A program made the position numbers and the translations under genes. DNA of 64,000 nucleotides from Litoditis marina (lineage: Eukaryota > Nematoda > Chromadorea > Rhabditida > Rhabditidae): positions 31,086,947 to 31,150,946 of the forward strand of contig OZ038434.1 in assembly GCA_964036275.1 (NCBI GenBank), written 5' to 3'. Every line of letters starts with the position of its first letter. Positions within the stretch are counted from its first letter, which is position 1. Of this stretch, positions 13,952 to 57,851 are shown piece after piece. The notes below the pieces were generated by a model. The model saw only the letters and a list, made by a program, of their open reading frames with translations. It was not told where the DNA came from and ran no database searches.

Positions 13952-16900
13952 ATGTTGAGACCGGAATCCAACAGAGCCAATGCGTCTTCCCATTGTGCGC
14001 CGTCGAAAAAGACGATCGTACTCGTGCTACTCCTGCTGACCGCCCCCATTCTATATGTTATTGTTGGTTAGTTTTCGAGTTTTGGTTATCTATTTTCCAG
14101 GGGTGCTCAAGTGATACTTCTCTGACCAATTAAGAGGCCATGAGGCGAATTCTTCATTTAACCCGGTATTTCGTTAACCCTAGCAGTTAGCAGTTAACCA
14201 TTAACCGGGCTACCTGGTTAACCCCTTTGTTAACCACTTGGTAACCCAAAATTTCCCCCAAAACAAAAGGGTTAACCCGGTTAATAGTTTACTGAGAGGG
14301 TTAACAAAATACCGGGTTCCTTGTGGAATTGGCCCAATTTAGAATAGATTAGTTTAGTTTATTCGCGATTGAAATTAAACACTTCAATTTCTATAGTGAA
14401 GATGATTAGATGAGGCATGGATAGACTTTGTAGTTCACAGAGGATTTTCTTGCAGTTGCAGTTCTCTGACCAACTTTGCTGAATAGTCAGAAAAATTTGG
14501 AGAACGTGTCTTGGTGAAAGTTTGATGCGAACCTGCGAACTTGAGGAATTTGAGGATTTTCAATCATAAATACCGCGCAATTTGCGGTTGCTTTTGTGTG
14601 CATTCGTTCAGGCTTAATCGCTCAATACTTCATACTTGATAGGTACAAGATTAATTTCGAATTCGAAAAGTCGGAAAATAACGGCACTTTCATCTTTAAC
14701 TCTTTAAGTACTCAACTCCCAGACCCCCAAATTCAAAGTAAGCCATAAAAGAGGTGTGTTTTACGAGCTCATTATCTATGTGTAATGTGTCAAGGTTACA
14801 GTGAGCTCATCGTACATCTGTTCAAATTATGTGTTGGTATAAAAGGTTGAAGTTTTTTTCGTTTCCCCCAAACATGACTTTCAAATGTTGCAGGCTCTTC
14901 CACCAATGAAGTCGCCTATGAATCGTATGTTCCGTCGAGGTAGGACATTACTTTTAATGATGTTTTTATGTATTAGTATTAGGGTGGTTCACGTTCACGA
15001 TTTCACGAATTTCACATTCATCTCCAAAAACAGGGCACAGGGCTTATCAAAAAAGGGTTTTTGTGAGTTTGGGCCAGATGGCGGGGTATAATTCATAATC
15101 TGTATTGACACCTCGAACTCGAAAAGTACAAAATTTCAGTTCTCTTAGTGAGTTTGCGTAAATTCAGGTTTTTGCGACGAGAATTCTCTAGTTTGATTTT
15201 GGATTTTTACTGAGATTTTCCATAAAAATACCTTGAGCAACAGTGTGTGCTAGAACAGACTCAATTGTAATTGTTTGATATAGGAGCAATATATATTTTT
15301 ATAAATGAGATAGTTTCCATATTTTGTTCAGGTTCTCGTTGAAGGAGATGCGTAGTTTCGCCGTGCGGAAACAGCTTTCGATGGACTATCGATCGGGCCT
15401 CTACACTCGGGTCAATCTATCGTTTAGTAGGATACTGGAAGATGTGCAGAATAGGTATGAACTTTACATGATTCCATATGCCCCCCCCCAATATGCAAGG
15501 CTGTACTACCATCAGAAGAAGCATAGGTAAAAAGGTGCCATCCTGAGATGGTACTACCTTCACTTTTTGACAAGAGTTAGCAATTGACCTCGTTCACTTT
15601 CGCCGCGCGATGGAGGAAGGGTGCAGCATCCATTGGCTGATCTCAGACCAGCCAATGGATGCTACCCTCTTCCCCCTCACTTTTGCAACAAGAGCGATCT
15701 GACCACCTTGACTTTTGAAAAGCCCGGTTGGACCCCTTTTTACCTATGATCAGAAGTGCCGTTCTTACGTTTTCAATCATACATCGTCAATGCCTCTTAT
15801 GATATGGGGAGTTGCGAACTAATTTCCATGAAAACTAGGGGTCGCGAGTTGAAAATCAGCAGATTTGATACAAAACAAATGAAAATTGTTGAAAATCGCA
15901 GTGTTGAACTACTTTGCAGGGCTCGCGACTCAAAAAAGAGAGGGGTATCGCGAGTTACCTTACCTATAGTAAAAACAGGTTACCGTACAAACTAACGGTA
16001 AAAACCACAATTTATGTTAGAAAAAACAGGTAACCGGTTTTTCACTTTAGGTTACCAACCGGTTACCTACTGTAACCCGAAAAAAAGGTTACCAAAAACC
16101 GGTTAGGTTACCAAAAAACTCGGTTACATATAGAATTCACCTGAAACTTTACCTATTTTCATCAAAAAGGAAAGTCCAAAAGTAGATGGACCGGTGTCTA
16201 AGTTATTTCCTTTGAAGTGGCGAAAACACACATGTCACGTTCTGAGTATTCCGATCATTTATTCCAGATTTGACATCAAAGCGAGTGATGTCATAGTCTT
16301 TGTGCACATTCAGAAGACGGCCGGGACGTCGTTCGAGAAGTTCCTGGTGAAGTATCTGGAGCTGGAACGACCCTGCGACTGTAGCCGGGGAAAGAAGAAG
16401 TGCACGTGCACGAGGCCGAATAGCAGAAATGAGGTCAGCACACTAGAGTACAGTTTTCCGCATAACCGCAAATCTCAGTAACTGACTTTCTTGCCAATTT
16501 CGATAAATTTGCGTGTTTCTGATGTTAATTATCAAATTTTTACGTATTTACGTCGAAAAAGTTCATTTGTGTAGAATATGTGTGGATGTGGAGATGAGGA
16601 ATGTTAGTTGGAGATACGAGTTGGAGTTACATAAAAGAGAACCCTTTTTGAATGAGTAAAATTCTATGATTTTGCAGCAAAAATTAACAAATTGTCCCGA
16701 TATGGCCCAAAAACAGTTTTTTCTGGCTTTTAAACATCTTTGCCGTAAAGTGGTGTCGAGTAGGATATAGAGATATAGCACTTTATAAGCCCGGTGTGTG
16801 GGTGGGAGTGGAACGTCCCCAGAACAGTTATCATGGCTTATCGATGATCAAGATTCGAATACGAAGGCAAGTGAGAACGTGCCGGTTGGGGTAATGCAGA

Positions 16901-21618: not shown

Positions 21619-22139
21619 TCAATCCCTGCTGAATATTAGCATATGATTATTGGCCGGCATTGCATGGCGAGCGGCCAGGCGAAGACCAGAGGCGGCCGCC
21701 AACTGAAATACAGTTATTGATCTATTCTCATTATTGATTGAAATTAAAATAATCATTTTATTCAACATTTGCTAGATACTAACCTACCAATAAGATGCAA
21801 AACCAATCACCCAAAATACGTTTTACGCTACGGCCTAAAAAAGTTAGGGGCAGGTGAAGTGAGAGCACGTGGCACGGCGTTAAAGGACGGTTAAATTTTC
21901 GGAATGGGGCGCCTTATGTGCGCACGACAAATTTTGAACCGATTTGAATGTCCCTGATTCAGGGGGGCGCCTATTTGCTTGCGCGTTTTCCGTCGGATCG
22001 TTTCTGGTGTTGGCGCCGATTTAGTGCTTGGGGAAAAATCTTCAAAATTAATTTAATTAAAAAAATTATCATTCTAATTATATTTTGTGTTAATCGATTA
22101 TCTCTCTATTTAAAAGTAAATTTATCAGTTTTTGAGTGA

Positions 22140-23404
22140 AGTTGATATGGTTCTATGCTCAATCTCTGTTCATTTAAAGCTTGTTTAGGGTATTATTTTT
22201 CTCTTAAAAACAAAATATCTTTTTGAATGCAGTTACGGATTATGCAAGCAATAAAATATATTATATTTTGTCAATTACTAGCATTGGATGTACGTAACTG
22301 TGTTAAAACGACGTAAATTCACATTTAGCAGTGGAATAAATCAATTTTTTCTATTTTGTTCCTCATAAAGCACTTGCACAGCACTTGCAACGAGCGATTC
22401 TAGTCATAATTGCTTTTTGCCACTCCCAAACGTCTCAATTTGCCTCAGTTCATTCATCATGGATTAGTTCTCAGTGTGAATTTTAAAATATAATAAGTGA
22501 AATTGAAGTTTAAATTATATTAATCTAATCTAATGAAATATAAGCAGTCTTTTATTTTATTGCGTATTGCTCTCACCAGTTTTATGAAATGATATCCATG
22601 TACGATCTGCGATCTCTCACAATGCTCGTTGTTATAAGGAATAAGGATTTTTCTCATATATATATTTAAGGTAATACTTAGCCCCGAGCCCCGACGTTCC
22701 GCGAAGCCGAAGACTCGAATCGGATGAACATCAGACAGCAAGGCCACGACAAGGACCGCGGATTGTGAAAATTGTACGTTTCTCCTATTTCTCAATTTAT
22801 AACTAAATTTATTGGTTTTTCGAGTTACGATGAATGAAGTGTAGTTATGGTTCTCTGCTACATTTCTGTCCACTTAAAGCTTTTTTTAGGAATATAAAAC
22901 GAATGACTTTTCTTCTGAATGAAATGACGGATCCATTGTTTAGCAATGTAGAAAGCGAGCTATGCTAAGCAATTGCTCTCTTTAGTCAATTAATAACATT
23001 GAATATAAAAATTATGTTTTCTATTATAGTAAGAACTACCGTTGAGCAAACATGAACATAATTGATTGAAAAAAACATGTACATTCACAATTAGCAGTTG
23101 AATGAACCAAAGCGAATCTGGTCATAATTGGATTTTTACTGTTTTAATATACCAACTTGCTCAAATTCATTCTTCTAGTCGGTAGCAACGATGAAAAACT
23201 GAACAATTTCGATTTCTGATTATGTTCATTATCTTTAGTTCCATAATGTGATATTGCACAATTAGAACTTGCTGTTGTTATGGGATATTTTCTCATTACT
23301 TTCTTTAAGGTAATTCGTCATCTTCATCTCCGACCTTTCGCGAAGCCCAAGGACATCAGCACCAGACATCATCCTTATGGCAAGGAATGAGGATAATCAA
23401 AACG
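22140..23404. repeat. Diverged tandem duplication of about 0.7 kb
   Basis: Blocks at 22140-22340 recur in order at 22855-23100 (TATGGTTCT, TTTAAAGCTT or CTTAAAGCTT, TTAGCAGT), and the GTTCCGCGAAGCC block near 22695 recurs as TTTCGCGAAGCCC near 23336. The second copy supplies exon 1 of the coiled-coil gene; in the first copy the matching ATGGCAAGG is not preserved. Confidence 0.6.
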
Positions 23405-24212
23405 GTACGTTTCCGCTGGACCGCACGCATGAGGTTACTTAGTTACTTGAACAGTCAAAACGTGCAATTATTTTCCGTGGTGTATGAAACGTGCAATTAT
23501 TTTCCGTGGTATACTTATGTACTATATTTTGTCATTTTGCAATTCAGGCGCGATGGATTCTGATAGGAGCGAGAGAGTGAGAGATGCAGATACGTGTGGA
23601 AGTGAAAATCTATCATTACGAGAGAATGCTGCAGATATGATTTCTGTTACCGGCAGTTTACCAGTGCGAGAGCCCGCTAATGGAATTTCTGTAGCCGGTT
23701 ATGTACGAGTGGGAGAGAATGCTGCTAATGTCACGTTTGGAAGAGGCAGTGTTTCGAGGAGAGAGAGTGCGCCTAATAACATACTGAGAGATGATGTTAA
23801 CCGGAAAGGTGCGGCTACCCTTCCTGCTGTTCCGAAATTCGCTAAGCCATTGCTGACTCCGCGAAGATCCATCAATGCTAATCGTGTTAACTCGGGATCG
23901 GTACTAACATTCACTATACCACCGGTGAAAACGCCCGAGCCTAAGCCACTAGCTGTTCGAACTGCACAGCAAACTACTCCGCAACGCTCCGCACCAGGCG
24001 CTTTGATGCGTAATCTGAGAGCCACAAACACGCATTTGGAATATAAAGTAGTTCAGTTGGAAACAGCCTGTCGAGCCAAAGATGAACAGATTAAGACGCT
24101 TTCTGAACAAATCACATGTATTTCGGCTGAAAATGAACAGTTGCGCCAGTCCTCAGGGAGAGTGTCAGTTTTAGAGAGGAATATGGCTTTGGAAACATGT
24201 TTATTCTCGTAG
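23377..24212 (+). CDS. Unidentified Ser/Arg-rich protein with peptide repeats and a coiled coil
   Basis: Exon 1 (23377-23404, MARNEDNQN) joins exon 2 (23548-24212) in phase after AATTCAG, giving 230 residues. Residues about 28-95 contain four imperfect repeats of 15-17 aa (for example SENLSLRENAADMISV, GSLPVREPANGISV, GYVRVGENAANVTF, GSVSRRESAPNN). A basic, Pro-rich middle is followed by a coiled coil (about 175-215, ENEQLRQ-type heptads). The stop lies inside a MITE end (CTACTGGTGTGTA), so the true C-terminus may instead use exons 24614-24632 and 24710-24953, which read DVELGNVSYLKNHLSEPSSP in frame if a weak donor near 24161 is used. I do not recognise the family; the layout loosely recalls chromosome-associated coiled-coil proteins, but that is not a claim. 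Confidence 0.6.
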
Positions 24213-25147
24213 AATAGCCGTACTCTACTGGTGTGTAGAAAACACTGACTGTAGCACACATGGTTTAGTTGGCGAAACCATACAAACTGTTTCTATTTCA
24301 AGCTAAAATCGTGTTCAACGTATATAATTACAGATTTCGTAAAACGCATTGTGTTTCGCTATCGCCAGCTATAGATGATTTCTCAACATTCGACGGGTTC
24401 TGCATTGTAGTTCTTCCTATCTGAAAGTAGGTATGTTTTCGTGCAGAGTAGTCTTTTTCTGCAGCAAGAAATATTGTACAGTGCTGTTGCTGCCTATTTT
24501 TGCAGTCACCCGCAACGTGAAAAGCCAAGTTAAATAACAGAAAATGACAGTTTATGGGCACACACCTCTTTTTGTGCGAAAATATTAGTAATTTCTCACT
24601 AAATATTGTTCAGGACGTCGAATTAGGTAACGGTATGTTTACACCATGACCATCGATTCTCTAATTACCATTACACAACATTTATTATATTTTTTACAGT
24701 TTCGTATCTGAAAAATCACCTGAGTGAGCCATCATCACCTCTTCGCGAGCTTCCTTTCGCCCGTCCATCTGTCCACGGAGCGTCTTCTATATCGATTATG
24801 TACATATTTTTGTTTTCCTCGCGTGTTGTGGTTGTTTTCATGTGTCGTTTATTCGCTATGTTGCGAACTTGTTTCTTCAAAGAGTGTTTTCATTACTGTT
24901 CAGCGCCCTTTTTGGTGTATTTTTGTTATACTTCTGTGATCTATTCGTTCTGAGAGTATTAAAATAGTTTATTTGCTTGAATACATGTTTTCAAAGTTTC
25001 AAACAAACTATTCATATTTGAACGTTTCTGAAGGAAATCAAGTGTAGCCAAACGTCAGTCTCGGTTTATTTTGGGCGCGAGCGGCGACCGCTCCGCGGCA
25101 TGCGGGTCCAGCGGGCGGGATTCCTATTGGGCAACATGCCGTGGTGG

Positions 25148-28100
25148 GCTCAACGATGAGGAATATGTTGGATAAATGAGTACATAGGCGAAAAGTCGAG
25201 GAACTATTAGCCCCTAAAAAGGGAGAATTCGCCTACAAAATAGCGGCCCTAAAAGTAACCTTTAGTCCCTCGACTTTTCATGTGAGTACAGTATTGGGTT
25301 TGACCGAATCTAAGTTGTAGTTTGACCCTGATGCGAGCTAGAATTCACCAAATTCGACCAAATAGAATCAAACTACAAACACAGTCGTATAGGGCAACAT
25401 ACAGCATTAAGGCTTGCTTCAGAAGGGAAATCGCCGACTGGTATTGATCCAAACGGTGTTGGGTTGAAAAATCGCATCAACACCACTAGAGTTGCCCGAA
25501 TGGTCATGAGAATTCAAGAAGAGTTACTCTTTTCCGGCTGATGTGGGCATAATTGGCCAATTTTCAATGCTTCTCCTGAAGCCACACATTCTCATCATTC
25601 TTCCCAAAGAAACAACCTCCGACATGAAACATTGGTAATCAGAACGAAACATAAAAGCTGTTGGCAGTGGGAAAGCTGTTCAAATTCATGAGAGCAAAAC
25701 AGAACTCACCTCGAACAATCCGGCCACAGCCGCGTCGCTACTGATATGAATCATGTTGATGTTCAACACGACGTCCACCTGAATGGGAAACGAGAAATCA
25801 GTGAGAGACTTGTGATGTTTGTTGTGACGATATAGATTCTATTCTGTTCTGTTTTCGTTCTGTTTCTCCTTGTTGTGTACCGGAGGAGACCGGAAAGGAA
25901 CTTGAATTAGGGGTGAAATGTCACGAAAAGTTCGAAGCTGACATTACTTTTTAAAAATATTCCCTAGTTAAGAAGTTATTGAGAGTTTGACTCCAAAGTT
26001 CAACTGTCTCGCCTCAGGTTAGAGTCAGACAGCTAGAGTGTGCCTCTATTATTCACGTGAATTCCATGCTCCCCCTTTCTCGAGAAAGGACATAAAGGAA
26101 CATAATCGATACACAAAAATCATTAGTTTGAAAAATAGGTAACTTTTCTGCATTCCAAATATATGGCGAGAATAAGTCCGTTTCCGGAAATAATATGGGC
26201 AGGTGGGCAAATTTGCCGAACGATAGTTGTAAACTAGTTTATATACATTATCGTACATGAAATATCGAATATAATAAGCAATCCACTAAAAACAACTTAG
26301 CGATGGCGTCTGAATGACTAGAATATATAAATAATCAGCACCTACACAAAATCGGAGAAACTATAAATGTGTGACATGATCTTCACAGGAGCGCCGGTTT
26401 CCCTGAAATTCCCCGATTTTTTCCCTGATTCTACCTCAATCGTTCCGGGATCATTTCGCGAAATGATCAGAGCGAAAAGAAGGTGAAAACCGGGAAAAAT
26501 CCCGGGAATTTCCCGGTTGTCACCTTACAATTTCTCAGTAGCTTCTCAGAAATTTTTCACACGTGATTGAAAAAACTAATAATATTTTTCTTGGTAAAAG
26601 TATTTTTCGAAAATGTTATCAAAAATATATTTTCTTGAAAAATATTTTTCTAAAAAATATTTTTCTAAAAAATATTTTTCAAAATATTAATAATATATGA
26701 AGAGAATAGAAGTGCATATTTCATTAGTAAAAACTTCATGAAATGAACTTCATTGTATCATCCCTATCGATATTCAGACCTCGATGTTGAGCTGATAATT
26801 TCCAAAATATCAAATCACGGCACCCCTGGCCGCGCCGTATCTAGTACGGGTTACGCGATTGCCGCGGCGAAAGGCTTATCCATGCCCTTTTTCCGATGCT
26901 TTTCCCCGATGCTGAGTTACCCAGAAATTATCGAGAAATTGTAGGGTATTTTATCATATTTTTCCCGCACTTTTCCCTGATACTGAGTTTCCCTGAAATT
27001 TCCGAGAATTTGTAGAGTTTATACCTCCATTTCACCCTGAAAATACCTTGAACGTTCTCGGGGATTTCCCGGAAATTCCATTTCCCCGAAACACCCTAGG
27101 TTTTTCCGGGTGCCCAATTTTCCGATGTTTGTAATTACATTTCAAAAATGTAAATAAAAAACGTCATTTCTGCACAAAAATTATGAGAAAACATATAAAA
27201 AGCCACAATAACAACACTTTTAGTAGAATAAATAAGATGAACAAACGATGAGGTGGTGCAGACAGAAATGATATGGACGATGGAGAGAGCATCAGCATTG
27301 GCCATGGATTTCACAGTAACCAGCGAAACCTAGAACAATTGAACTTGGGTCAACGAAATGAGATTCCAGAAGCAACAAAACATTGTTGCTGAAAATTCTC
27401 TCATATTGCATTTATTTCACAGAAAATTGTCCCCTACTGTTCTAATTCATATGACGATGTTTGTTTATGCAGCAAATGGTGATATGTACTAGAAAGAGGG
27501 AAAAAATTTCTTGTTTGACCTCATAAACATTAGTTTGTTTGTCATTTCAGTTCGACGTCAGAGAATGTCGTAATAGCAATACTTCGAACTTCGGCTGAGA
27601 TTTGCTGACTTCGTATGGTTTAGTTGATTTTAGCTACCTTCACACTGTTAGCTACCTTCACAGTACTTGTGCTGAATACATATAAAAACTCCGAAATAAG
27701 ATAAATAGTTCAAAGCGCAGTGCACACAAATAGTAAATAGAACCTGAATTGTACCAACCTTCGGTGAAAAGAAGAATATCCTTCGAAACCCGAGGGCAAG
27801 AGAAGAGGAGAGCCAGTAATTGGAGACAGACGACGTGGAGAACCAGAAAGGTGCAACTGACACACACTATACACGAGCCGCTGAAACATGAGTATACTCT
27901 GAAGTAAAAAACCAAGTTGTTTACCAAGGTTCGCGCCACCAAATTGGCCACTAGTTGATATCAAGTTGTGAAATGAAAGCTTGGTGCACAACTTGGGCGG
28001 CGGGTTACGGTAATTTTGCAATAGGGCCAGGGTCGGCTGGTACCCCGCTAAAAACAGCTGGTACCTCCAATTATGCACAAATACTCTATTTTTGTTTTGT

Positions 28101-28556: not shown

Positions 28557-34975
<6,419 letters not shown>

Positions 34976-37999: not shown

Positions 38000-38010
38000 A
38001 TGGGGATGAG

Positions 38011-44000: not shown

Positions 44001-45411
44001 TACGATCATGAACTTAAAAAAAGATAGTTCTACTTCGAGCACAGATGGGCTAACTATAACAACCCAAGGCTTGAAGAGTTGAATATTCCTCCGAACCAAG
44101 AAGGTAAAAGTCATACGTCCCCTCTAACCTCTAACAATCATCCAGCAATTCCCAAAGTTTCGGCAACGCTGTTGGTACGCGGTTGGTTCCCCAGCCAAAT
44201 TAGAGAATAAATTAATGATTTCCCGTTCAAGGATCCGGGGTATAACACCTATGAATTTGACGGAACACTGTGCAGAGTTCACGAATCAATGGAACATCCT
44301 AGGTAATTTGATAACAGATTAGTTCCACCCTGGAAATATTTAACACAATTTTTACTCAATGAGAGAAAACAACATACCCGCTTCGCACATAATTCTGCAC
44401 ACAAACGAGATGACGTAGATTTCTCCAAAACAAGCTCGAAAACCAATTTCGCTATCTGTAAAATAATGAATATTTCAATTAATAGAAAAAAACTACGAAC
44501 TTCCAAACAGACTTTGTTATTGGGCAATCTCTGAAAGATCCCAGGTAATGTGAAAACAACAGAAACAATAATTGAAAATTGCCAAAAAAGAAAATTGCGA
44601 ATATAATTTGCACCCACCATTCCCTGCATTTTACTTCACATCTCTACACATATCTCCGACAAACACGTGAAAATTATGATTTTGCTCAAAGAATGGACAA
44701 ATTCTCCCATTTTCGACGCAAAAAATAGCCCGTTTCCCGATTTTTCTAGCTGTTCGGACAACTTTAGAGGGGTGTGTCCCAACCGTTTTGTCAAAAACAC
44801 TCGAATCAGAGAAAAACGTAGAACGTTACCTACCTGCTCGATTACGGTCCTGTTTTGGAAAGAAATCGATAGGAACCGGCTGGAACAACGTTGAAGGGTG
44901 GATGGTGTGACCTCAGATAGTGCCGAACGAGCGAGCTCGACCGTAGACTGGAACTGTGTATTGGTATGAGTTATGATAATAAACACGCTTTTCGGAAGTG
45001 TAGTCGAAAAACAACATAAAGTGACCAAAAATAATAACAACATAATACAGATTTTTGTGGAAATACATTGTCCAAGAACAGAACAACTAGGTTTGCAAAG
45101 GCGGAAGATTTTCGGTCACCTATCTTCCCGTTGGCAAAGTTGCGCGCTGAGAGTGCGCCGCAAATGGTACGCTCCAAGATTTGATCCACTTTCCTGGGCT
45201 GTCTCACTCCTTTTCGCGGGTCAAGCTTAATTGCGTACCATTTGAGCGTCTCCCGTGATATGAGAAATATGTGTATTTTTTTATAAATAGGAGTTTGAAA
45301 TAACGTTCCGCCCTTCTTACGATCTCAATATGTGACTCAGAAACAACGCCTGTATCCCGCCTATAATTCATTAAATCTGCACGAGCTTACCTCATCAGGG
45401 TTTGTAGACAT
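38011..45411 (-). CDS. MIF4G-domain (eIF4G-like) protein with C-terminal leucine zipper
   Basis: Eleven coding exons: 45391-45411 (MSTNPDE), 44834-44953, 44378-44455, 43676-43786, 43271-43335, 42812-42905, 42014-42147, 38962-39019, 38600-38656, 38193-38339 and 38011-38025. All phases agree, giving 299 residues. The middle exons follow the eIF4G MIF4G fold: LARSALSEVTPSTLQRC, IAKLVFELVLEK, SHLFNHSIVPSHDMKRYLDD, LKQLEAASQNFSHESR and MISDLKKLRQKGW, the last two matching the SSRIRFMLQDVLDLR region. The C-terminus is a zipper (LLKIQNEQLRSQNEQLLARF) ending QPQQNVAE. No eIF4E-binding motif or MA3 domain is seen, so it is a short MIF4G paralogue rather than full eIF4G. The ATG lies 34 bases after an acceptor, consistent with trans-splicing. 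Intron 7 (39.0-42.0 kb) is full of transposons. Confidence 0.8.
39480..39850. repeat. Tandem repeat, unit about 130 bp
   Basis: Two full units and a partial third share TAAGTACTAACGACTGTTAA, TTTCCACTGCTTTTTG and CTTCCACGAGTAATAAA. It lies in intron 7 of the MIF4G gene. Confidence 0.8.
39870..39984 (-). CDS. Possible alternative terminal exon of the MIF4G gene
   Basis: After the acceptor CTCATCTAG, the phase left open by exon 7 (ending FSHESR) reads on through SYFTYCRSLSGKVAQVYVLE and RPDVTQLVIVTQAPPNN to a TAA. It would replace the helix reading MISDLKKLRQKGW and the zipper with a 37-residue tail. Phase fit, acceptor and Arg/Val-rich coding look support it; no AATAAA is seen just downstream. 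Confidence 0.45.
40611..41985. mobile_element. Helitron-like element with palindromic end, in MIF4G intron 7
   Basis: The left part (40611-40930) is a long palindrome whose arms begin TAGTAAAAAGTGGGG. The right end carries CGCAGCGCTTCGCGCTGCG at about 41969. The interior shares blocks with the insertion at 55256-57368, such as GACACGA, TGTTAAATTACGAAAAA and CAAACCAAACACAACTCAC, and has GGCGCC motifs. The right end lies about 28 bases from the donor of exon 7. Confidence 0.6.
42280..42545. mobile_element. CGATTATGTGG-family MITE interrupted by G-rich sequence
   Basis: The left part has GAATATGTGGACCTATCCCG and CGGTCCTTTAAACT; the right part has TTTAAACTACAATCGAAAAATG. Between them lies a direct repeat flanked by ATACCCTAAATGC-type ends with poly-G runs at about 42443 and 42485. 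Confidence 0.55.
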
Positions 45412-45617
45412 ATTGTGAACAGTAGATAGAGCAGCGACAATACACCTGTAACTAAATTCATACGTACAAATAAGTGGGAATCTTCAGACATTGTTGAAAG
45501 ACTAGCTAATTATCAAAAAGTCATCAAACTCAGTTTATACGTGGATATGTTGGGTCGAGTTCTACCAACTCAATTAGCCCAACTGTTAATTACTATTTAC
45601 ATAATGCGAGTGGAGTG

Positions 45618-47134
45618 GGGACCTACTAATTACCGCACCTACCGCACCGCTGAAATACCGCACCGCGATTTGAAAATACCGCACCGTACCGCACCAGCGC
45701 CAATTTGCGTATTTTTTCAAAAATTCCAAAGTCTCCAATTTTGCAAGCAAAATAGTTCCTAAAGCAGAAATCCTAATCTTTCATCACTTGAAAACAAACA
45801 TAGTGATCTCGAGAAAACGTTCTTTCCAACTTTCTCACTAGAAGACCATACGCTTATACGCTTTACGTATTGCATTTTCGTTTTCTGTTGGGTGACTTCA
45901 TACCTTCATGTTTTCATGAGTTATCAAATGTATAGAAGAAGCTGCTCATCATTTCAAAAGAAAAGTACAGCCAATTCTACAACTAACCGGGTTTTTAGGT
46001 AACTTAACCTTTTTTTGGTAACCTATTTTTCAGGTTACTTAGTAGGTAACCTGAAAGTAACCTAAAACTGAAATCGGGTTACCGGTAAAACTAACGATGA
46101 AAACCACATTCTGCGTTAGAAAAACAGGTAACCGGTTTTTCATTTTAGGTTACCATCCGGTTACCTACTGAGGTAACCTGAAAAATGGGTTACCCAAAAA
46201 GGGTTAGGTTACCTGAAAACCCGGTTAGTTGTAGAATTCACCGAAAAGTACTGAGGAGTACCCATGATGATGGCTTTTTCTCCACTACTTAAAACTATGT
46301 CATGAACCTCAGATATACCGTAAAACTAATGAACGCCGGCCTCACCTGACTCAAGTGTGCTTTTTATTTCTAGTTTCTAGAACCGTTTTTCACAGCCGTT
46401 TTTGTAACGCTTCCATCAGTACAAATATATATTATATGTGAATAATACGAGAGAGGATAGAACGTATACGTGACCTCGCATTTAGTAACTTAACGGTGAT
46501 TGATTCTAAACGTGAAAATATGTTTTCTTCTATCTGTGTTCATGAGAGCTGGATCTCTGCATCGACAGACAGTTTGCTCCTAACGAAGTCCTAGCTGCTA
46601 TGGGACAACAGTTTTGAGAGACCCGAACTGGCTAACTCTGTAATGATCAACTACTTTGCTGTTGGTCCGACATATTAAATACCGGGCTTGCTTTTTGTTG
46701 TTTCAAGAATACCCAAGTAGTTATCGTTGTTATCGATGAACCTTTTTGGAAACAGTCGGAAAATATCTTAGATGCATGCTTCGACAAATATAGTGACCAA
46801 TTTGCTTTTAGAAGAGCTGAAAGGATCTCTAGACAAATGAACTGACTGAAAACTATTTTTCGAAACACAATTCAGAATATTTCCACTATTCCTGCAGAAA
46901 AAGGAAATAAACTAATTGTGTTCGGTCATTAAACATCATGTTCAGACTTGCTGTATCTAAAGTGATGAAAAGGATAGGATTTCTGCTTTAGAAACTATTT
47001 TAATTGCAAAATTAAAGATTTTGTGTTTTTTGAAAAAAATACGCAAATTTGCGCTGGTGCGGTACGGTGCGGTATTTTCAAATCGCGGTGCGGTATTTCA
47101 CCCGGTGCGGTAGGTGCGGTAATTAGTAGGTCCC
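45618..47134. mobile_element. Mutator-like foldback element, 1.5 kb, 9-bp target duplication
   Basis: Inverted ends start GGGACCTACTAATTACCGCA and run about 165 bp on each side (landmarks ACCGCACCGCGATTTGAAAA and TAAAGCAGAAATCCTA on the left, complements on the right). The flanks repeat AGTGGAGTG exactly (45609-45617 and 47135-47143). Long termini with a 9-bp duplication are typical of Mutator-like elements. No transposase frame is seen, so it is non-autonomous. A GGTTACC palindrome (45985-46243) is nested inside. Confidence 0.85.
45985..46243. mobile_element. GGTTACC palindromic element nested in the Mutator-like element
   Basis: Ends are ATTCTACAACTAACCGGG and its complement; the body alternates GGTAACC and GGTTACC. 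Best preserved copy of this family in the window. Confidence 0.85.
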
Positions 47135-47585
47135 AGTGGAGTGTTAAATTGAAATATTATATACTAAGTATAACTAATATTAGTCAACTGACAAATAGTA
47201 TGACAAGATAGATAGGAAGTTTGTCCGACCAGACCGACCGACCGACGATAAGATGATGATAAATTTTTTTTAGGCATGCCTTTAAAGAATTTCACTTCCC
47301 GCCCAATTTGGGTTAGAGCGCCAATTATGACTAGCGCAGACTTGCGGCCCTCTACTTTTCTCTGCCGTTTGAGTTCACTGATTTGATCTTTTTCTGAAGA
47401 AGTTTTTTCGTACCAAGGCACCTTCATTATTATTTTTGCTACACAAACATTCTTTCTTTTTGTAAACCGCAACTGCTTACATTCCGAAATTCCAGAAGAA
47501 TATACATGCAATATTTACATTCAGACCCAAACACGTTCATTTAGACTATCACAATATGAAGGTCCCGTGGTGAAGTCGTGCGGAA

Positions 47586-48412
47586 TCACTTTTTCTCATC
47601 CTGCAAATATATAGTTGCAAAATATGAAGAAATTCACGGAGTGGGTCAAATGAGTAAAAATAATTAGTGATTGATTGATTAATGATTAAGATGAACGCAG
47701 TTTTGTATTTCCTTTACCTTTACAGTTTTGTAACGTTTTTTAGAGGTTTGTTTACTGGTTTGGTTGTTAACAAAATTTCCAAAATATTATAAAGAAAGTT
47801 GCCCACCTCTTTCTTCTCTTCTTTCTCATCCTGAAAATACAAGGATAAGAACTCGGAAACTCATACATATTCGGATACAAAATATATAAACAAGACAACA
47901 CGATTTGTTTAATCGGCGTAGAACTCTCTACTTTTAAAATAAACTAAGTGATCAAAAAGCACGATTATGTGGACCAAACCAGTGTCAACGGTCCTATAAA
48001 CTGCAATAAAAAATGTATTGAGGTTTAAAGAAGTAAAGCGTTGCGATTGGACCACATAATCGCTCTTTTTTAAATCAGAAAAGTAATAAATATATTAGTT
48101 GAGTAACTAACTGGAAGAAGTCGATATAATATAGTACCTAGCTCCACAGTACGGCTGCAATTAGTCATTGTTACAATCCGTTAGTTTGTCAGCAGAATAC
48201 AGCTAACATCACAAATAAAAAGGGGCATGGCTTAATTTTACCTCTTTCTTCTCCTCTTCTTCCTCCTTCTTTTCTTCTTTCTTCTCATCCTTGTCATCCT
48301 TCTCCTCTTTTTTCTCTTCTTTCTTCTCTTCTTTCTTCTCTTCTTTCTTTTCTTCCTTTTTGTCCTCTCCCTTCTTTTCATCCTTTTTGTCTTCCTTTTT
48401 GTCGTCATCTTC
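47586..48412 (-). CDS. Lys/Glu-rich C-terminal end of a truncated gene
   Basis: Three phase-0 exons with good splice sites: 48242-48412 (EDDDKKEDKKDEKKGEDKK, then repeated EEKK units), 47807-47830 (DEKEEKKE) and 47586-47600 (DEKK, TGA). Together they form an acidic/basic charged tail of 69 residues. The acceptor of the first exon lies only about 30 bases from the border of the duplicated hst-6 block at 48444, and no upstream exon is found within or beyond that block. The parent gene cannot be identified. Low complexity makes coding status uncertain, but the three matched junctions argue for it. Confidence 0.5.
47950..48075. mobile_element. Palindromic MITE, CGATTATGTGG family
   Basis: Ends AAAAAGCACGATTATGTGG and CCACATAATCGCTCTTTTT are inverted; the core has AAACTGCAATAAAAAATGTA. 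It lies just upstream of the middle Lys/Glu-rich exon on the minus strand. Confidence 0.75.
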
Positions 48413-48591
48413 CTGGAAATATTTAGTTTAACGAAAAACGATTAAATTATGTGTTGGTATAAACAGTTGAAGTTCTCTTCGTTTCGCTCAAACATGACTT
48501 TCACATGTTGCAGGCTCTTCCACCAATGAAGTCGCCTATGAATCCTATGTTCCGTCGAGGTAGGACATTACTTTTAATGATGTGTCATGTA

Positions 48592-48818
48592 CATACACCG
48601 CCAAGGGTCTCTCAGTTTTTCTGAGAGCTCGTGATACCTTCTTCTTTTTTGAGCTGCGACCCCTCCAAATTAGTTGGAAACTGCAATTTTCAGGATTTTT
48701 GGTTCCATTTTGACTAGACTTGTATGAAATTTGCTGGTTTTCAACTTGTGAACCCTACTTTTCATGGAAATTAGTTTGCGGCCCCTCCCCATATCATAGG
48801 AGGCCTTGGCGGTGTATG
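48592..48818. mobile_element. MITE, CATACACCGCCAAGG family, only in the second hst-6 copy
   Basis: Inverted ends CATACACCGCCAAGG and CCTTGGCGGTGTATGG. The first copy lacks it at the equivalent place (after TTAATGATGT near 14965). TA flanks both ends, which would fit a 2-bp TA duplication, though nearby bases also changed. Confidence 0.85.
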
Positions 48819-49323
48819 GGTATGTATTAGTATTAGGGTGTTTCACAAATTCACAAATTTTACATTCATCTCGAAAAACAGGGCACAGGGCTTATCAAAA
48901 AAGGGTTTTTGTGAGTTTGGGCCAGATGGCGGGGTATAATTCATAATCTGTATTGACACCTCGAACTCGAAAAGTACAAAATTTCAGTTCTCTTAGTGAG
49001 TTTGCGTAAATTCAGGTTTTTGCGACGAGAGTTCTCTAGTTTGATTTTGGATTTTTACTGATATTTTCCATAAAAATACCTTGAGCAACAGTGTGTGCTA
49101 GAACAGACTCAATTGTAATTTTTTTGATATAGGAGCAATATATATTTTTATAAATGGGATAGTTTTCATATTTTGTTCAGGTTCTCGTTGAAGGAGATGC
49201 GTAGTTTCGCCGTGCGGAAACAGCTTTCCATGGACTATCGATCGGGCCTCTACACTCGGGTCAATCTATCGTTTAGTAGGATACTGGAAGATGTTCAGAA
49301 TAGGTATGAACTTCACATGATTG

Positions 49324-49493
49324 CAGACACCAGTGAGGTCCGACTAAGCAACAAAAAGTAATCGGTTTTTAGATGTAAACACGTGAAAATTTAGGATTTT
49401 TCATCAAAGGTAGACCGATTTTCATCTTTTCGGCTAAAAAGTAGTCCGTTTTTCGAACTTTTCTGACTATTCGGACAACCTTGCTGGTGTATG
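49324..49493. mobile_element. hAT-like MITE with exact 8-bp duplication, only in the second hst-6 copy
   Basis: Begins CAGACACCAGTGAGGTCCGA and ends CTTGCTGGTGTATG. Flanks CATGATTG (49316-49323 and 49494-49501) are identical, while the first copy has a single unoccupied site at about 15467. This fixes the boundaries of the CACCAGTAAGG family. Confidence 0.9.
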
Positions 49494-49597
49494 CATGATT
49501 GCATATTGCCCCCCCCCCCCCCCCCCCCCCAAAATATGCAAGGTCGTACTACCATCAGAAGTGCAGTTCTTACGTTTTCAATATTCTAAGCATGTGC

Positions 49598-49650
49598 TGT
49601 TGTCTGTCAATCTATCATTGAATAGGATACTAGAAGACGTTCATAATAGG
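49598..49650 (+). pseudogene. Extra copy of the end of hst-6 exon 3
   Basis: GTCAATCTATCATTGAATAG and the following bases read VNLSLNRILEDVHNR, closely matching the end of exon 3 (VNLSFSRILEDVQNR), and are followed by GTGAGC. It lies about 300 bases after the normal exon 3; the first copy has transposon sequence at this position. Confidence 0.65.
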
Positions 49651-52042
49651 TGAGCACATCGTTTTTGTACGATTCTCATTGCTACAAATATTCGGAAAAG
49701 TGAGCTTCTCATCAAAAGGAAAGTCCAAAAGGAGAGGGACCGTTGTCTAAGTTATTTACTTTGAAGTGGCGAAAACACACATGTCACGTTCTGAGTATTC
49801 TGATCATTTATTCCAGATTGGACATCAAAGCGAGTGACGTCATCGTCTTCGTGCACATTCAGAAGACGGCCGGCACGTCGTTCGAGAAGTTCCTGGTGAA
49901 GTATCTGGAGCTGGAACGACCCTGCGACTGTAGCCGGGGGAAAAAGAAGTGCACGTGCACGAGGCCGAATAGCAGGAATGAGGTGAGCGCACTAGAGTAC
50001 AGTTCTCCGCATAACCGGAAATCTCAGTAACTGACTTTTTTGGCAATTTCTGTAAATTTCGGTCATTTTTGTAGAATATGTGTGGATGTGGAGATGAGGG
50101 ATGTTAGTTGGAGCTACGAATTGGAGTTTTTGAATGAGTAAAATTCGGCGATTTCGCAGCAAAAATTGGCAAATTGTCAAAAAGTTTTTTTCTGGCTTTC
50201 AAACATCTTTGCCGTAAAGTGGTCTCGAGTAGGATATAGGGATATGGCACTTTATAAGCTGTTTTAACATCAGAAATACCCTTTTTTTTCTTGAAATCCC
50301 TGCAAAATCGTAGACTACCCATTCCATCTGGCATTCAATCGGTAGGTTGTTGTTTCACGTTTTACCCTCGCCAGTAACGTGGCGCGGTGTTCTAAAATTC
50401 TCCCGATTTCAGTTGAAATCTGTCGAACCTCATGATTTTTCTGAATATTTTGAGATTTGGAATTTGGAAGTTGGAAATCTACTTTCAGTTTGAATACGTG
50501 GAGTTAAGGAATAGGTCTATGGTATCCAGTGTTTTGACCGGCTAGCGTACCTTAGGAGATTATAATTTTTGGTATTTTTTTCTCGGTAAGTGGTATGAGT
50601 ATTTTTCCACTTTGACTGTATGGAAACATGAAACGATAAAACTGCTCAAATTGTAGTTTGATCTTTGATCTTCGATTTCCAGTCAAACGCGAATGTTGGC
50701 TGACCTGACCCTAGTCGACTGTTACTCTCGTTCGTCAATGGACAGGGAGACGAGAGATCGAATAATGTTGGAGAGTGCCAAGAATAACCTCAGGTACGGT
50801 AGACATTGTTATGATGTGTTGAAAATGGAGCATAGTAGCCTGCTCAGAATCTACTCGTTTTGCTCCAACTCACAGATGGTATTAGGTTATTAGGGAGGTT
50901 CGAACCGTTTACTGATTTGGTTTATTCAACACTATTGTTATTTGTAAGAAGTAATTCACTGGCGTTTTCAAGTTTACACCTTGTGGTTTTCTGTTTACAA
51001 ATATAATTTATATCAACGTTCGTAATTATTCGAATGTCTCTTCAGGAACCTGGCCTATTTCGGTATAAAAGAGCGAATGGACGACAGTCAATTTCTATTC
51101 GAGCAAATATTTTCGATGAGGTGAAAATATGTTTTTTTGCTTTTGCTGGTAGTATAGATTATCTGGGAATCATTTTAATCAATCAACTAGGATGGAACTA
51201 TGGTTGTGAATCAAGTTTAAAAAAATTTCTAGTTGCACTCGAAAACTTTTCTCTAGTCGAGTTGTAATAATCTTGGATGTAAGGTACAAGCTACAACGAT
51301 ACAAATGTCTTTTTTCGCTCGATGGTTCCGACATTATCAAAATTGTTTTGTCAATTTCTGCATTTTCTCCAGATTTATCCGAAACCTGTCCGACTGGCAC
51401 CGCAGCAAGTCGAACGACACGAAAATCACAGCCGATCAGCTGATTCTGATCAGACAGAAAAATCGATTGGACCTCGAATTGTACGACTATGCCATTGAAT
51501 TATTAGAGAGTCGATTGGAATTGTTGAGAAAGAAGGGGAAGGTGGGTGAAGTTGCCAGAATCCTGTTATTTTACGAGTCTCACTACTTTATTCTACTTTT
51601 TTTCGGTGCTCACCGCGCATCTCAGCAACAGTTTTACACATTTATTTGCTCTAGTCTAATCAATTCTCAAGTTTCTCAGATTGTAGCCGTAGATTTGTGT
51701 CAGTTCGTACATGTATAAATTTTTATATTCTTAGAAATAAATGATTTTAATGAATATGTACATGTTGGAATGTGCAAACAATAAATTAAACTAGTTCAGG
51801 TATGCAAACTCTCAAATCTTAACATGTTTTTACCAGGATAGAACAGATAAACTAAGGAAATGGATATTTATGATATAGGCTAGTTTGCATTATCAAGGCA
51901 AGACCAAAAGGCAAAAGGTACATACAGTAGGTCATTACTTATACTAGAAATATCAGAAATGAACAGAATCACGTGAAACGTGAGTTAACACCTAACACGT
52001 TTTCACGTGACAAGTATTTGCCCAGGAGTACACAGTTCTCCG

Positions 52043-55000
52043 TCAATCCCTGCTTAATATTAGCATATGATTATTGGCCGGCATTGCATGGCGAGCGGCC
52101 AGGCGAAGACCAGAGGCGGCCGCCAACTGTAATACAGTTATTGATCTATTCTCATTATTGATTGAAATTAAAATAATCATTTTATTCACCATTCGCTAGA
52201 TACTCGCCTACCAATAAGATGCAAAACCAATCACCTAAAATACGTTTTACGCTACGGCCTAAAAAGTTAGGGGCAGGTGAAGTGAGAGCACGTGGGCTCA
52301 ACGATCAACTTACTTCATCTAGAAAACCCCAGCGACGAATAATACTACTCAACTACAAAATATCAGTCATGCTCACTCTAACATCATATAAGGTGGGTTT
52401 CAGGTCGGCAAGGTTTACATCCCACAAAAGTAGTTGGTAGGTGAAATTCCGGCTGAAATAACTTGGATAAAATCGATAATTCATCCGAATCGACCAACCT
52501 CCGACAGAAATGTCACATCCCTCAGTCCCCATTCCTTGTTCTGCGATCGAAGCGACGCGTCGAAGTCGATATTACTCTGTGGGGAGATGACGCCATCTAT
52601 TGAATATGGTCCGTAGGTGATCAGCATCCCGCTGCCGTGCTTCAGAAGGGCACTCGACGACTGGAATTTAGAATGTGACCAAATCTCAGTTGTAGTTTGA
52701 TCAAGCTAGATCATACGAATTTCGAACAAATAGGAACGGGATCAATGAACAAATTCAGAAGGGCACTCGATGACTGGAATATGTTGGGTAAATAAGTACA
52801 TAGGTGAAAAGTCGAGGAACTATTAGCCCCTAAATAGGGAGAATTCAGCTACAAAATCGCGGCCCTAAAAGTAACCTTTAGTCCTTTGACTTTTCATGTG
52901 AGTACAGTATTGGGTTTGACCGAATCTAAGTTGTAGTTTGACCCTGATGCGAGCTAGAATTCACCAAATTCGACCAAATAGAATCAAACTACAAACACAG
53001 TCGTATAGGGCAACATACAGCATTAAGGCTTGCTTCAGAAGGGAAATCGCCGACTGGTATTGATCCAAACGGTGTTGGGTTGAAAAATCGCATCAACACC
53101 ACTAGAGTTGCCCGAATGGTCATGAGAATTCAAGAAGAGTTACTCTTTTCCGGCTGATGTGGGCATAATTGGCCAATTTTCAATGCTTCTCCTGAAGCCA
53201 CACATTCTCATCATTCTTCCCAAAGAAACAACCTCCGACATGAAACATTGGTAATCAGAACGAAACATAAAAGCTGTTGGCAGTGGGAAAGCTGTTCAAA
53301 TTCATGAGAGCAAAACAGAACTCACCTCGAACAATCCGGCCACAGCCGCGTCGCTACTGATATGAATCATGTTGATGTTCAACACGACGTCCACCTGAAT
53401 GGGAAACGAGAAATCAGTGAGAGACTTGTGATGTTTGTTGTGACGATATAGATTCTATTCTGTTCTGTTTTTGTTCTCTTTCTCCTTGTTGTGTTTTCAT
53501 TTTTTCTGTTTTCTCTTCTTGTTACCACTCGCTTTTGCACGGAATAAAGTGTTCATATATAAAACCGCACCGACTGCCGGATACGCACGGCAAATTCCAA
53601 AAAAATCTGTTTTGAATTATATATACCGGGTGATGATCGAAAGCGTTGTAGAATAAGAAATGTTGGTTATTTCTCGAAAAAAGTCACATTCCCCTACACA
53701 CTTCCCGGATAACTAAGTAAAACGTGCAAAGAAAAGCCGATGAAAAGGACCCAATGGTCGGACCAAGAATGTTTATTGAATCATATGAGATGTGATTCGA
53801 AGTGTAGAAGAACGAGTATTTAAACACCAAAAAGAACCCATAATCAGTGAAGGCGAAAGATTCAAAAGGGGAGCTCAGACTAAGTACTGTTTCTACACGT
53901 TACAAAACGAGTTAAATAGTTTACAAGTTTTACAAAACTAGTTGAATAGTTCAAGTGTAAATACCTGATTCGGTCCGAAATCCTCGGGAAGTGCCCACCG
54001 ATTCACGGGTCGCGCCACGTCTATGAACAGCGGCACTCGCACATTCGGCTGCTGAAAAGAGTACAATAATTGAATAATACAAATGTAAAGTTTATACCCA
54101 TTGCAATGTACACTTTACAAAGAAAGAAACTGAAACTGTGGATAGAGAACAAATGCGGGTTCTAGACGATGCACTCTGTGTACAAACAAAACGGCGATGG
54201 GTCATTGTAGAAACACTAGAAAACGGTTACTTCACAAAATAGAGTCCGGCTGGTACTGTTCAGACTGTTCAAGGAACATGTTATCTCCCGCCAGTTAGCT
54301 GTCTCAAACTATTCACGATCAAAATGACTAGAGAAAGCAACAAATGATGTTATTATTATTATTACTGACAAACAGCGGCGGGCCGAACTCTGATAACAGC
54401 AGGGGTGACCAAAAAGTTGACCAATCCTACCACCGGTACGACCCCTCCCTCTTAAAATATGCAAATTCACCGAAAATCAAGAACTTATTCTTCATAATTG
54501 CGGGAAATTCACCTAAATTGGTGAAAAATCATGGTAATTTGGAAATTTTCGGCCCTGGCAGGCCTTTACGACCCCCCTCTCCCTAAAAATGTTGCACGCG
54601 TGCAACTTGTGGTCACCCCTGGATAACAGTTACGTAGTCGACAAACGTCAACATTGATTACCTCACTTGGTTCGGTTCAACCTTTTCAATTGGATTTCCG
54701 TTCGGTTCTCGATGTTTTCAGCATTCTCACTGAGATTTTGACAGCGTCCCAATGAATTTCAGAGTTGTTTTTCGCCAAGTAATCTTTCTTACAGTAGGTG
54801 AACAAGAATACTTTTGACAGAACGCAATAGGTCTATGATAAACTTTCCTTTAAAATTGCATTGGCTCGCTGCCAAGGTCTCAGTGGGAATGAAAACGAGT
54901 ATACGCACCCTATGATGATCGCTATATCCGACGCGACAATAATACTGTGCAAAGAGCGGTTACCTACACAGGTAACCAGAAAACGAGGTTACTAAAAACC

Positions 55001-57851
55001 TATTAGGATTCTATATAGAATTCACACCCCGTTACCCACTCACCCGATGATGATCGATATATCCGACGATACTGTGCAGTGATCGGGCATCCTGTTCGGA
55101 GGGCTGCCACGTGACATTCGGCAGGTATTCCGCCAGATGGACACAGTGCTGGCCGGTCCCAGACGCCAACTCCAGAACCTGAGAATAAAATCCAAGTTAG
55201 ATAAATAGTAATTAATTACTAGTGACTCAATTATACTTTGTGCAAATAAATAACTAAAGTTGTGAACCACTGTGCAACATTGGTATTGTTCTATTTTTGC
55301 AGAATACTACTGCTACAGTATAACAGCAATTCGTGTCGTTCTTTTTTTGCTGATATAGAGGTCAAACCAAACACAACTCACACATTTGTTGGTTCCCCCA
55401 CTTTTTACTAATAGTTCTTTTTTTGCTAGTTGTACAATTACAACTATCCATGGTACAAGAAGGAGAATGTTGGCGCTAATTGGCGCAAGCGACTAACGCC
55501 ACTGATAAATTTGAAATTGTCGAGTTACTAACGTAGTTGTATTGTGATCATCGGCCAAATGACAAAATTCCAATCATTTATGTTGACAATTTGTCGTTCC
55601 TGCGTTCTGGCGCAATTTGGCGGCAGCGCTTGGCGCCAACGCAAAATTTTCAGTTTCTGACAGATCACTTTACTTAACCATGTGACCACTTTTAACTGTA
55701 GCAAATTTCAAACGATTCCGTGGACAATGACGTATCTTGGAGTTTTGGCGCCTGTCCGAGCGCCAGAAGAGAAATTTCAGTTCGGAAAAAAGAAATTCAC
55801 ATTTTCCACGAAAGTATCCAATTCCTCTCCGTGTTAAACATTTCAATTAACGACAACTAGTGCTTTGTCATTGTTGGCGCTATTAGCGCCCGCGCCCGAC
55901 GCCATTGATGAGCTATACATCTCATAATTGGCGCGACGGCTAACTTTTGCATTAGAACTCATGTTTCAAACTTCAGCTAAATCGGTTCAGTCTGTTTTCC
56001 AATAGTCGTTTTTGACGCCTATTGGCGCCCGCGCCCGGCGCCAATGAGGAGCTGTACACCTCATATTTGGCGCGACGCGCTAACTACTGCATTAGAACTC
56101 ATGTTTCAAATTTCAGCTAAATCGGTTCGGTAGTTTTTCCAATAGTCGTTTTTGACGCCTATTGGCGCCCGCGCCCGGCGCCAATGAGGAGCTGTACACC
56201 TCATAATTGGCGCGACGGGCTAACTTTTGCATTAGAACTCATGTTTCAAATTTCAGCTAAATCGGTTCGGTAGTTTTTCCAATAGTCGTTTTTGGCGCCC
56301 GCGCCCGGCGTCAATGACAAGCTATACACCTCATATTTGGCGCAACGGGCTAACTTTTGCATTAGAACTCATGTTTCAAACTTCAGCTAAATCGGTTCAG
56401 TCTTTTTTCCAATAGTCGTTTTTGACGCCTATTGGCGCCCGCGCCCGGCGCCAATGAGGAGCTGTACACCTCATATTTGGCGCGACGAGCTAACTATTGC
56501 ATTAGAACTCATGTTTCAAACTTCAGCTAAATCGGTTCAGTCTTTTTTCCAATAGTCGTTTTTGACGCCTATTGGCGCCCGCGCCCGGCGCCAATGAGGA
56601 GCTGTACACCTCATATTTGGCGCGACGAGCTAACTATTGCATTAGAACTCATGTTTCAAATTTCAGCTAAATCGGTTCGATAGTTTTTCCAATAGTCGTT
56701 TTTGGCGCCTGTTGGCGCCCGGCGTCAATGACAAGCTATACACCTCATATTTGGCGCAACGGCCTAACTGTTGCATTAGAATTCATGTTTCAAATTTCAG
56801 CTAAATCGGTTCGGTAGTTTTTCCAATAGTCGTTTTTGGCGTCTATTGGCGCCCGCGCCCGGCGCCAATGAGGAGCTATACATTTCATATTTGGCGCGTC
56901 GGGCTAACTTGTGCATTAGAACTCATGTTCCAAATTTCAGCCAAATCGGTTTAGTAGTTTTTTCAATAGTCGTTTTTGGCGCCCGCGCTCGGCGCCAATG
57001 ATGAGATATACATTTCATATTTGGCGCGACGGGCCAACTTTTGCATTAGAACTCATGTTCCAAATTTCAGCCAAATCGGTTCAGTAGTTTTTCCACTACG
57101 ATGCGGACAGAATTCCGTGAGGGATGAGGAAGGAGGGACGAGGGACGAATTACGGCGGAACTTTTCAACAACGACACGAAACCATAACTCAGGCGAAAAT
57201 AATCCGATTTGGCTAAAATTTTCACACAATGTTCAATTCGTGATTCTCAAACGTTCTCTCCTTTTAGTATTTAAAAAAAATTATATTTGAAGCTTTTTGT
57301 TGGTTAAAAGGAAAAAACGAGTCCGCAATGACCAAACCAAAGACAACTCACGCAGAGCGCTCCGCGCGATTCACACATGTTCCATTCACAGGTAGACACG
57401 TATGAATGTCACATTTCCAAACGTGTTTTCGGGCTTCTCGTAAGGATTACGATGTCGCACTATTGTCAGCACAGTCTATACGTTCATCAGCAAAGCGTCA
57501 TTATTAAGTTCTGTTGGAATGAGAAATATGAATGTCAACGATAATTACTGAATAATAAGGTGATACGCCGACAAAAAAGCAGTGCACTGATGGCTAGTAC
57601 CCTGTTGTATGAGGATAGCAGACAAGGATGAGCTTTTCTTACATCGGCTGTCGATTATTTGCATGGATGTTGCACAACCAATCATACATGAAAAAGCAGT
57701 TGAAATACTTCAACTTGTTATTCATCATCAAATATAAAGTTACCAAGTAACATAACATCGAAAAACCTACTTTCATGCCATCCCCAAGATATTGTCGCAA
57801 AACATCTAGAATTGGACCCTTGTTGCGGTCAGCCGCACTGGCGCGTAGCAT
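52043..57851 (-). CDS. METTL26: METTL26 homologue (UPF0585/DUF938 methyltransferase-like), complete
   Basis: Six exons: 57771-57851, 55044-55178, 53965-54051, 53326-53394, 52499-52660 and 52043-52126, all phase 0 with GT-AG ends, encoding 205 residues (human about 204). It begins MLRASAADRNKGPILDVLRQ and continues with the SAM-binding motif VLELASGTGQH, WQPSEQDARSLHSI, VDVVLNINMIHI, the family signature MLITYGPYSIDGVISPQSN with DFDASLRSQNKEWGLRD, and a C-terminal MPANNHMLIL. The substrate of this class I methyltransferase-like family is not established. Intron 1 contains a 2.1-kb insertion and intron 2 a hAT MITE. It is the only complete METTL26 in the window and lies tail-to-tail with the hst-6 pseudogene. 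Confidence 0.93.
54400..54621. mobile_element. hAT MITE with 8-bp duplication in METTL26 intron 2
   Basis: Ends CAGGGGTGACCA and GGTCACCCCTG are inverted, with exact flanks GATAACAG (54392-54399 and 54622-54629). The METTL26 fragment at 35-37 kb has the empty site at about 36344. Terminal sequence and 8-bp duplication are typical of hAT. Confidence 0.92.
55256..57368. mobile_element. 2.1-kb Helitron-like insertion in METTL26 intron 1
   Basis: Homology with the fragment at 35-37 kb breaks at AAATAACT (about 55256) and resumes at TTCACACAT (about 57368); about 100 bp of the other copy is absent here. The left part has CCCCCACTTTTTACTAAT and the right border has GCAGAGCGCTCCGCGCGATT, as in the element near 41985. 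The centre is a GGCGCC-rich minisatellite. Confidence 0.7.
55945..57085. repeat. Minisatellite, nine units of about 130-140 bp
   Basis: Each unit carries GCATTAGAACTCATGTT, TTCAGCTAAATCGGTTC, TTTTTCCAATAGTCGTTTTT and a GGCGCCCGCGCCCGGCGCC block. The GGCGCC blocks are the most variable part, being doubled, shortened or lost between units. Confidence 0.93.

Follow-up and report, generated by a model that had tools for sequence, protein, structure and literature searches.

What could leave two neighbouring genes duplicated together with one intact copy of each, and these in different copies of the unit? The question is raised by a window of 64,000 bp from the nematode Litoditis marina, the whole stretch of DNA analyzed here; the contig that carries it measures 40 Mb, in a genome of 262 Mb.

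A convergent gene pair present in two blocks

The duplication is real: the convergent pair formed by hst-6 (+ strand) and METTL26 (- strand), arranged tail to tail, is found in two blocks.

14824..37428, + strand: left duplicated block, from same-strand alignment blocks, interrupted by repeats, starting inside hst-6 intron 1
48444..57722, + strand: right duplicated block, from same-strand alignment blocks, ending inside METTL26 intron 1

Ten main same-strand blocks, picked from 29 alignment rows of which the others were short or repeats, link the two in collinear order, and they bear out the unit of hst-6 followed by METTL26 that a sequence-only reading of this DNA had seen twice. The copies share one orientation, are adjacent and meet at one junction, which carries an 11-kb patch, as in a tandem direct duplication. 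The outer limits of homology fall between exons 1 and 2 of hst-6 (14824) and between exons 1 and 2 of METTL26 (57722). Between the blocks, 209 substitutions were counted over 5,599 aligned sites (3.7%), a count into which a 472-bp stretch, present twice in the left block, enters two times; in the noncoding DNA of the unit, one block being left out, 169 of 3,809 sites differ (4.4%). No RNA gene was found at Rfam gathering scores.

Intact outer genes

The left copy of hst-6 is complete.

13952..20278, + strand: intact left hst-6, 11 exons, from splice sites and frame
13952-14066, 14894-14939, 15332-15454, 16268-16433, 16982-17090, 17673-17784, + strand: exons 1-6
18304-18429, 18803-18913, 19167-19241, 19497-19665, 20111-20278, + strand: exons 7-11

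It encodes 439 aa over its 11 exons, with GT-AG sites, a single frame and no internal stop; hence the eleven exons attributed to it earlier are supported by both splice sites and reading frame. The product of exons 3-11 (385 aa) matches PF03567 (E 1.8e-21), the solved HS6ST3 structure 5t03 over residues 34-328 (E 1.6e-95) and nematode hst-6 relatives with E values down to 1.2e-162, the best-scoring of which is 61% identical, among the matches listed. Exon 1, located 757 bp outside the left block, encodes MLRPESNR and a hydrophobic run (compare MLRPQNNR in Auanema), as an N-terminal membrane anchor should. Strict anchor-exon settings had returned nothing, and looser ones gave nine frames including the one at 13952; a first exon with its ATG at 14906 was dropped, as its frame does not join. 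The PF03567 sulfotransferase family is large in this genome (101 matches with E values no higher than 10, mainly on contig C4), and the profile cannot separate HS6ST members.

METTL26 is complete in the right copy.

52043..57851, - strand: intact right METTL26, 6 exons, from splice sites and frame, PF06080 and relatives
57771-57851, 55044-55178, 53965-54051, 53326-53394, 52499-52660, 52043-52126, - strand: exons 1-6

This gene model confirms the six exons proposed earlier. Its 205 aa contain a full-length DUF938 domain (PF06080, E 4.2e-66; residues 4-202, profile positions 4-200 of 202), and its nematode relatives bear the name METTL26, the best-scoring one being 73% identical among the matches listed. 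Exon 1 (57771-57851) lies 48 bp past the end of the right block. Intron 1 holds a GC-rich tandem array (55880-57095) of about nine copies with a 140-bp period. Upstream, an operon-like row of reading frames occupies 58634-61408 on the - strand; by their motifs, we take these frames to resemble RPL37A, TCTP and RPLP0. From the stop of the RPL37A-like frame to the start of METTL26 the distance is about 780 bp.

Damaged inner genes

The right copy of hst-6 lacks exons 1, 5, 6, most of 7, and 11, exactly the losses named by the sequence-only reading and now delimited by the alignment blocks.

48514..51541, + strand: damaged right hst-6, from alignment blocks and exon comparison
48514-48559, 49181-49303, 49817-49982, + strand: surviving exons 2, 3 and 4
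within 50314-50358, + strand: remnant of exon 7
50683-50793, 51046-51120, 51373-51541, + strand: surviving exons 8, 9 and 10

Exons 2, 3, 4, 8, 9 and 10 retain their splice sites. Splicing from exon 4 to exon 8 would be out of frame, since the phase is 0 at the end of exon 4 and 2 at the start of exon 8. A short element occupies 48584-48820 in intron 2, with alike stretches near 15778, 19935 and 30384. A palindromic short repeat family is represented at 15972-16146, 10661-10932 and 45970-46242, with 73 matches listed besides the two hst-6 copies.

The left copy of METTL26 is less damaged than had been described.

21619..36899, - strand: damaged left METTL26, from PF06080 matches and exon comparison
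36765-36899, 35920-36006, - strand: exons 2 and 3, in frame
35541-35609 and 25710-25778, - strand: two copies of exon 4, in frame
21619-21702, - strand: exon 6, in frame
21873..25143, unstranded: dispersed element at the expected site of exon 5; its copies coincide at both ends to within a few bases
25879..35234, unstranded: repeat-rich insert of about 9.4 kb between the two exon-4 copies
25272..25855, unstranded: tract of 584 bp identical to the right block

Only exons 1 and 5 are missing; the earlier statement that exons 4 and 6 alone had been kept was wrong, exons 2 and 3 being present as well and exon 4 doubled. In a genome-wide profile search with PF06080 (E up to 10), all eight matches fell inside the window, on exons 2, 4 and 6 of both copies, with two exon 4 matches in the left one, and on exon 5 of the right copy only, this model being blind to exons 1 and 3. 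Several copies of the dispersed element at the exon 5 site are internally deleted. A 253-aa open frame inside it (23451-24209) gave zero matches in a Pfam search. The 9.4-kb insert, bordered by two copies of the 472-bp stretch that holds exon 4, consists mostly of repeats (26384-27128, 27897-33883 and 33883-35238), as searched outside 30001-32729. Of the two exon-4 copies, the one closer to hst-6 shows no difference from the right block along the 584-bp tract (P 3e-12 at the noncoding rate), which points to recent conversion or copying from the live METTL26. As for the decay proposed for both inner genes, exons have indeed been lost; the damage is structural, whole surviving exons carrying neither stops nor frameshifts and keeping their splice sites.

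The junction between the blocks

The two blocks are separated by 11,015 bp made of two segments, which we call alpha and beta; C16 is the contig that carries the window.

37429..47376, unstranded: junction segment alpha, with relatives at C16:29088127-29097152 and C16:30872922-30880296
47379..48443, unstranded: junction segment beta, with a relative at C16:30808785-30809879

Further pieces related to alpha lie at C16:26.36-26.39 and C2:19.29-19.30 Mb. In two segments compared, alpha differs by 2.8 to 5.7% from the two fetched relatives. These remain alike leftward past the edge of alpha, which marks this edge as a break rather than the terminus of an element; a junction insert in the form of a mobile element with true ends was therefore rejected. 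Beta and its relative differ at 32 of 957 sites over 47482-48448 (3.3%), a value not significantly different from the 4.4% of the noncoding DNA of the unit (p 0.15), and the match extends 5 bp into the right block. The end of the left block and the start of the right block adjoin the same insert, with two matching bases per edge, as read by eye. A young transposon with inverted ends (45618-47134) is found inside alpha; among the 40 candidates scored, it recurs in 39 further places with 95-99% identity. By eye, reading frame L040 resembles a non-LTR retrotransposon; it lies between two nearly identical copies of a portion of beta, which show one difference over 382 sites.

A probable single junction event

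From the observed anatomy, the limits in intron 1, the relatives of the junction DNA and the intact outer genes, we infer a single event, which may have proceeded by template switching or by end joining with copied patches. In this probable course of events, the convergent pair, hst-6 and METTL26 pointing toward each other, would have been duplicated head-to-tail, a layout that sets the left METTL26 and the right hst-6 head-to-head at the junction as inner genes and leaves each outer gene the 5' end it had. A single rearrangement of this junction, joined via about 10 kb and 1 kb of DNA related to sequence elsewhere, for the most part on this contig, would have cut exon 1 from both inner genes and left the outer genes untouched. 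One event can remove both first exons because both homology limits in intron 1 face the same 11-kb insert. Repeat insertions and deletions would then have taken exons 5-7 and 11 of the right hst-6 and exon 5 of the left METTL26. The event may have been either the duplication itself, between alleles about 4% apart, or a later loss in an older working tandem pair. Some points speak against a single event: its simplest form, with the inner genes dead at birth, is rejected for hst-6, so that an extra assumption is needed, and alpha stands 2.8 to 5.7% off its relatives, with no direct source found. The ends of homology could alternatively come from separate deletions.

Codon changes and the timing of the loss

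Synonymous divergence, a check proposed with the sequence-only reading, was calculated for both genes. Over 225 whole codons of the shared hst-6 exons, 25 differ, 23 synonymously and two nonsynonymously; METTL26 shows two changes of each kind, the second left exon 4 being excluded, and has little power. In hst-6, 24 of 225 third positions differ, against one of 450 first and second positions. The surviving exons, said to be nearly identical, are so at the protein level (two amino-acid changes over 225 hst-6 codons) but less so in their DNA. The third positions of hst-6 diverge more than the noncoding DNA (24/225 vs. 169/3,809, p 0.00015). Had the right hst-6 been neutral since the split, about 12 nonsynonymous changes would be expected at the noncoding rate where two were seen (P 0.0006), and 10 changes at first and second positions where one was seen (P 0.0005). 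For the left METTL26, 6.3 nonsynonymous changes would be expected, where the two copies between them show two (P 0.049).

Comparison with relatives placed both hst-6 changes on the right copy: at the exon 10 site, residue F was found in 42 of 42 matched relatives (48 tried), and at the exon 4 site in 11 of 11 relatives listed, these aligned relatives being used because the pattern search matched only one of 48. At the METTL26 exon 6 site, F was found in 16 of 16 matched relatives (52 tried), and thus the live right copy bears the change; at the exon 2 site, the 27 of 52 relatives that matched have mixed residues.

The excess of synonymous over nonsynonymous changes shows that the right hst-6 exons were under constraint for most of the divergence. 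That both inner copies were dead at birth and have diverged since is rejected for hst-6 by the codon counts, unless divergence came first. The few nonsynonymous changes would therefore reflect either allelic divergence before the event or a late loss at the junction. The values for beta (3.3%) and noncoding DNA (4.4%) would fit allelic divergence before the event more easily, because a late break should leave a younger beta, with the caveat that the relative found may differ from the true source of beta. The METTL26 counts lean the same way, toward constraint through the divergence, without deciding. A tandem duplication between two haplotypes already about 4% apart in noncoding DNA, the blocks thus being captured alleles, is a tentative proposal, to which we give somewhat worse than even chances; if true, it would explain selection on exons in a copy that lacked its first exon from the outset.

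Independent losses, assembly and mobile elements

The sequence-only reading rightly saw a reciprocal outcome, with one intact copy of each gene in different blocks; the independent decays invoked for it are unneeded, as one event suffices. Duplication of both complete genes, a time with both units working and then independent complementary losses that fix the duplication nevertheless deserve consideration. Purifying selection on the right hst-6 (two nonsynonymous against 23 synonymous changes, P 5e-9 if neutral throughout) and the placement of both its amino-acid changes on that copy by outgroups indicate selection after divergence began, which makes a period with two working copies possible; the four METTL26 changes add little power. 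The later lesions are separate, yet both exon-1 losses are common to one junction, both first exons ending at the same insert. A duplicated outer flank could not be traced in the 11-kb middle: comparison of the junction DNA with the flanks, including 100 kb on each side for one stretch of it, yielded short repeats only. Nor is the duplication locked in, as had been argued, since it is the outer genes that are intact and a crossover would restore the whole pair. Indeed, an unequal crossover between the copies of a shared 742-bp intergenic block (21131-21872 and 51552-52295) would reverse the duplication without loss, removing 30,421 bp and leaving both genes whole; in the computed product, hst-6 and METTL26 each have a single terminal stop. 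We therefore regard this series of independent losses as unlikely.

Two haplotypes of one locus set in tandem by the assembly, the finding that by its own account would have undone the sequence-only reading, would differ by about 4% and carry the signs of selection seen here. This artefact is made improbable, well below independent losses, by the flanks of the two blocks, which match only in short repeats (eight rows, the longest of 274 bp, with the left flank taken from 8000 on), by the DNA between the blocks, which has its own relatives elsewhere, and by the single 40-Mb contig that carries both blocks. No third copy of 16000-17000 was found besides the short repeat within it, among the 40 of 2,727 candidates that were scored. 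Transport of one block to this place by a mobile element would suit the multicopy middle segments, but the two fetched alpha copies start before the edge seen here, the genome search with PF06080 revealed no METTL26 sequence elsewhere and the outer genes retain their own flanks; such a capture is very improbable, more so than the artefact.

Ancestral neighbourhood and known systems

Relatives of hst-6 and METTL26 (best 120 matches each, counted by hand) were compared in 20 nematode species with a contig size for both. The two genes were on contigs of equal size, read as the same contig, in six of the 20 among the matches listed:

Auanema, 553,820; Diploscapter, 68,297; Cooperia, 26,336
Oesophagostomum, 258,703 (another fragment has a different size); C. 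elegans, 17,718,942; C. brenneri, 28,009,396

Gene order can be viewed only in Diploscapter, with the adjacent tags WR25_18272/18271. The sizes differ in the other 14 species, including two Steinernema, two Bursaphelenchus, three Aphelenchoides, Mesorhabditis and Toxocara; for some of these, the assemblies are split or not the same one. These comparisons indicate that the neighbourhood is old within one nematode group, a point in favour of the course of events proposed above, with the 14 species of differing size as a point against it.

Reciprocal gene loss between duplicates requires a redundant period and independent losses. The present locus resembles it in that each gene survives in a single copy, the two lying in separate blocks, and differs in that one junction event is enough. 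In C. elegans, 114 of 290 young duplicate pairs were complete and 176 were not, according to the accessible part of the report (PMC3449122); as in the partial duplicates described there, the span of the duplication cuts through genes, whereas here both ends are cut, in intron 1 of two convergent genes, with one whole copy of each. The accessible part of a study of helq-1 mutant worms describes tandem duplications that show microhomology and, in some cases, templated insertions (PMC8654963). Direct repeats of about 0.1-10 kb, junction microhomology and occasional patches are common to both cases; the patch here, in contrast, measures 11 kb, its relatives lie at distances of about 0.25 to 5 Mb along this contig, plus one on a second contig, and that part of the study makes no mention of a patch of this kind. 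A limited search, judged by title, found no published account of the same arrangement.

The locus is a neat but ordinary partial duplication of a known kind. In a tandem duplicate of a convergent pair, both inner copies abut a single junction, so that one event can give a "reciprocal" outcome; claims of complementary decay should hence first be tested for a single junction event. A damaged copy with clean codons is a usable sign that divergence predates the loss. If the blocks are captured alleles, young duplications in Litoditis marina would look old from birth.
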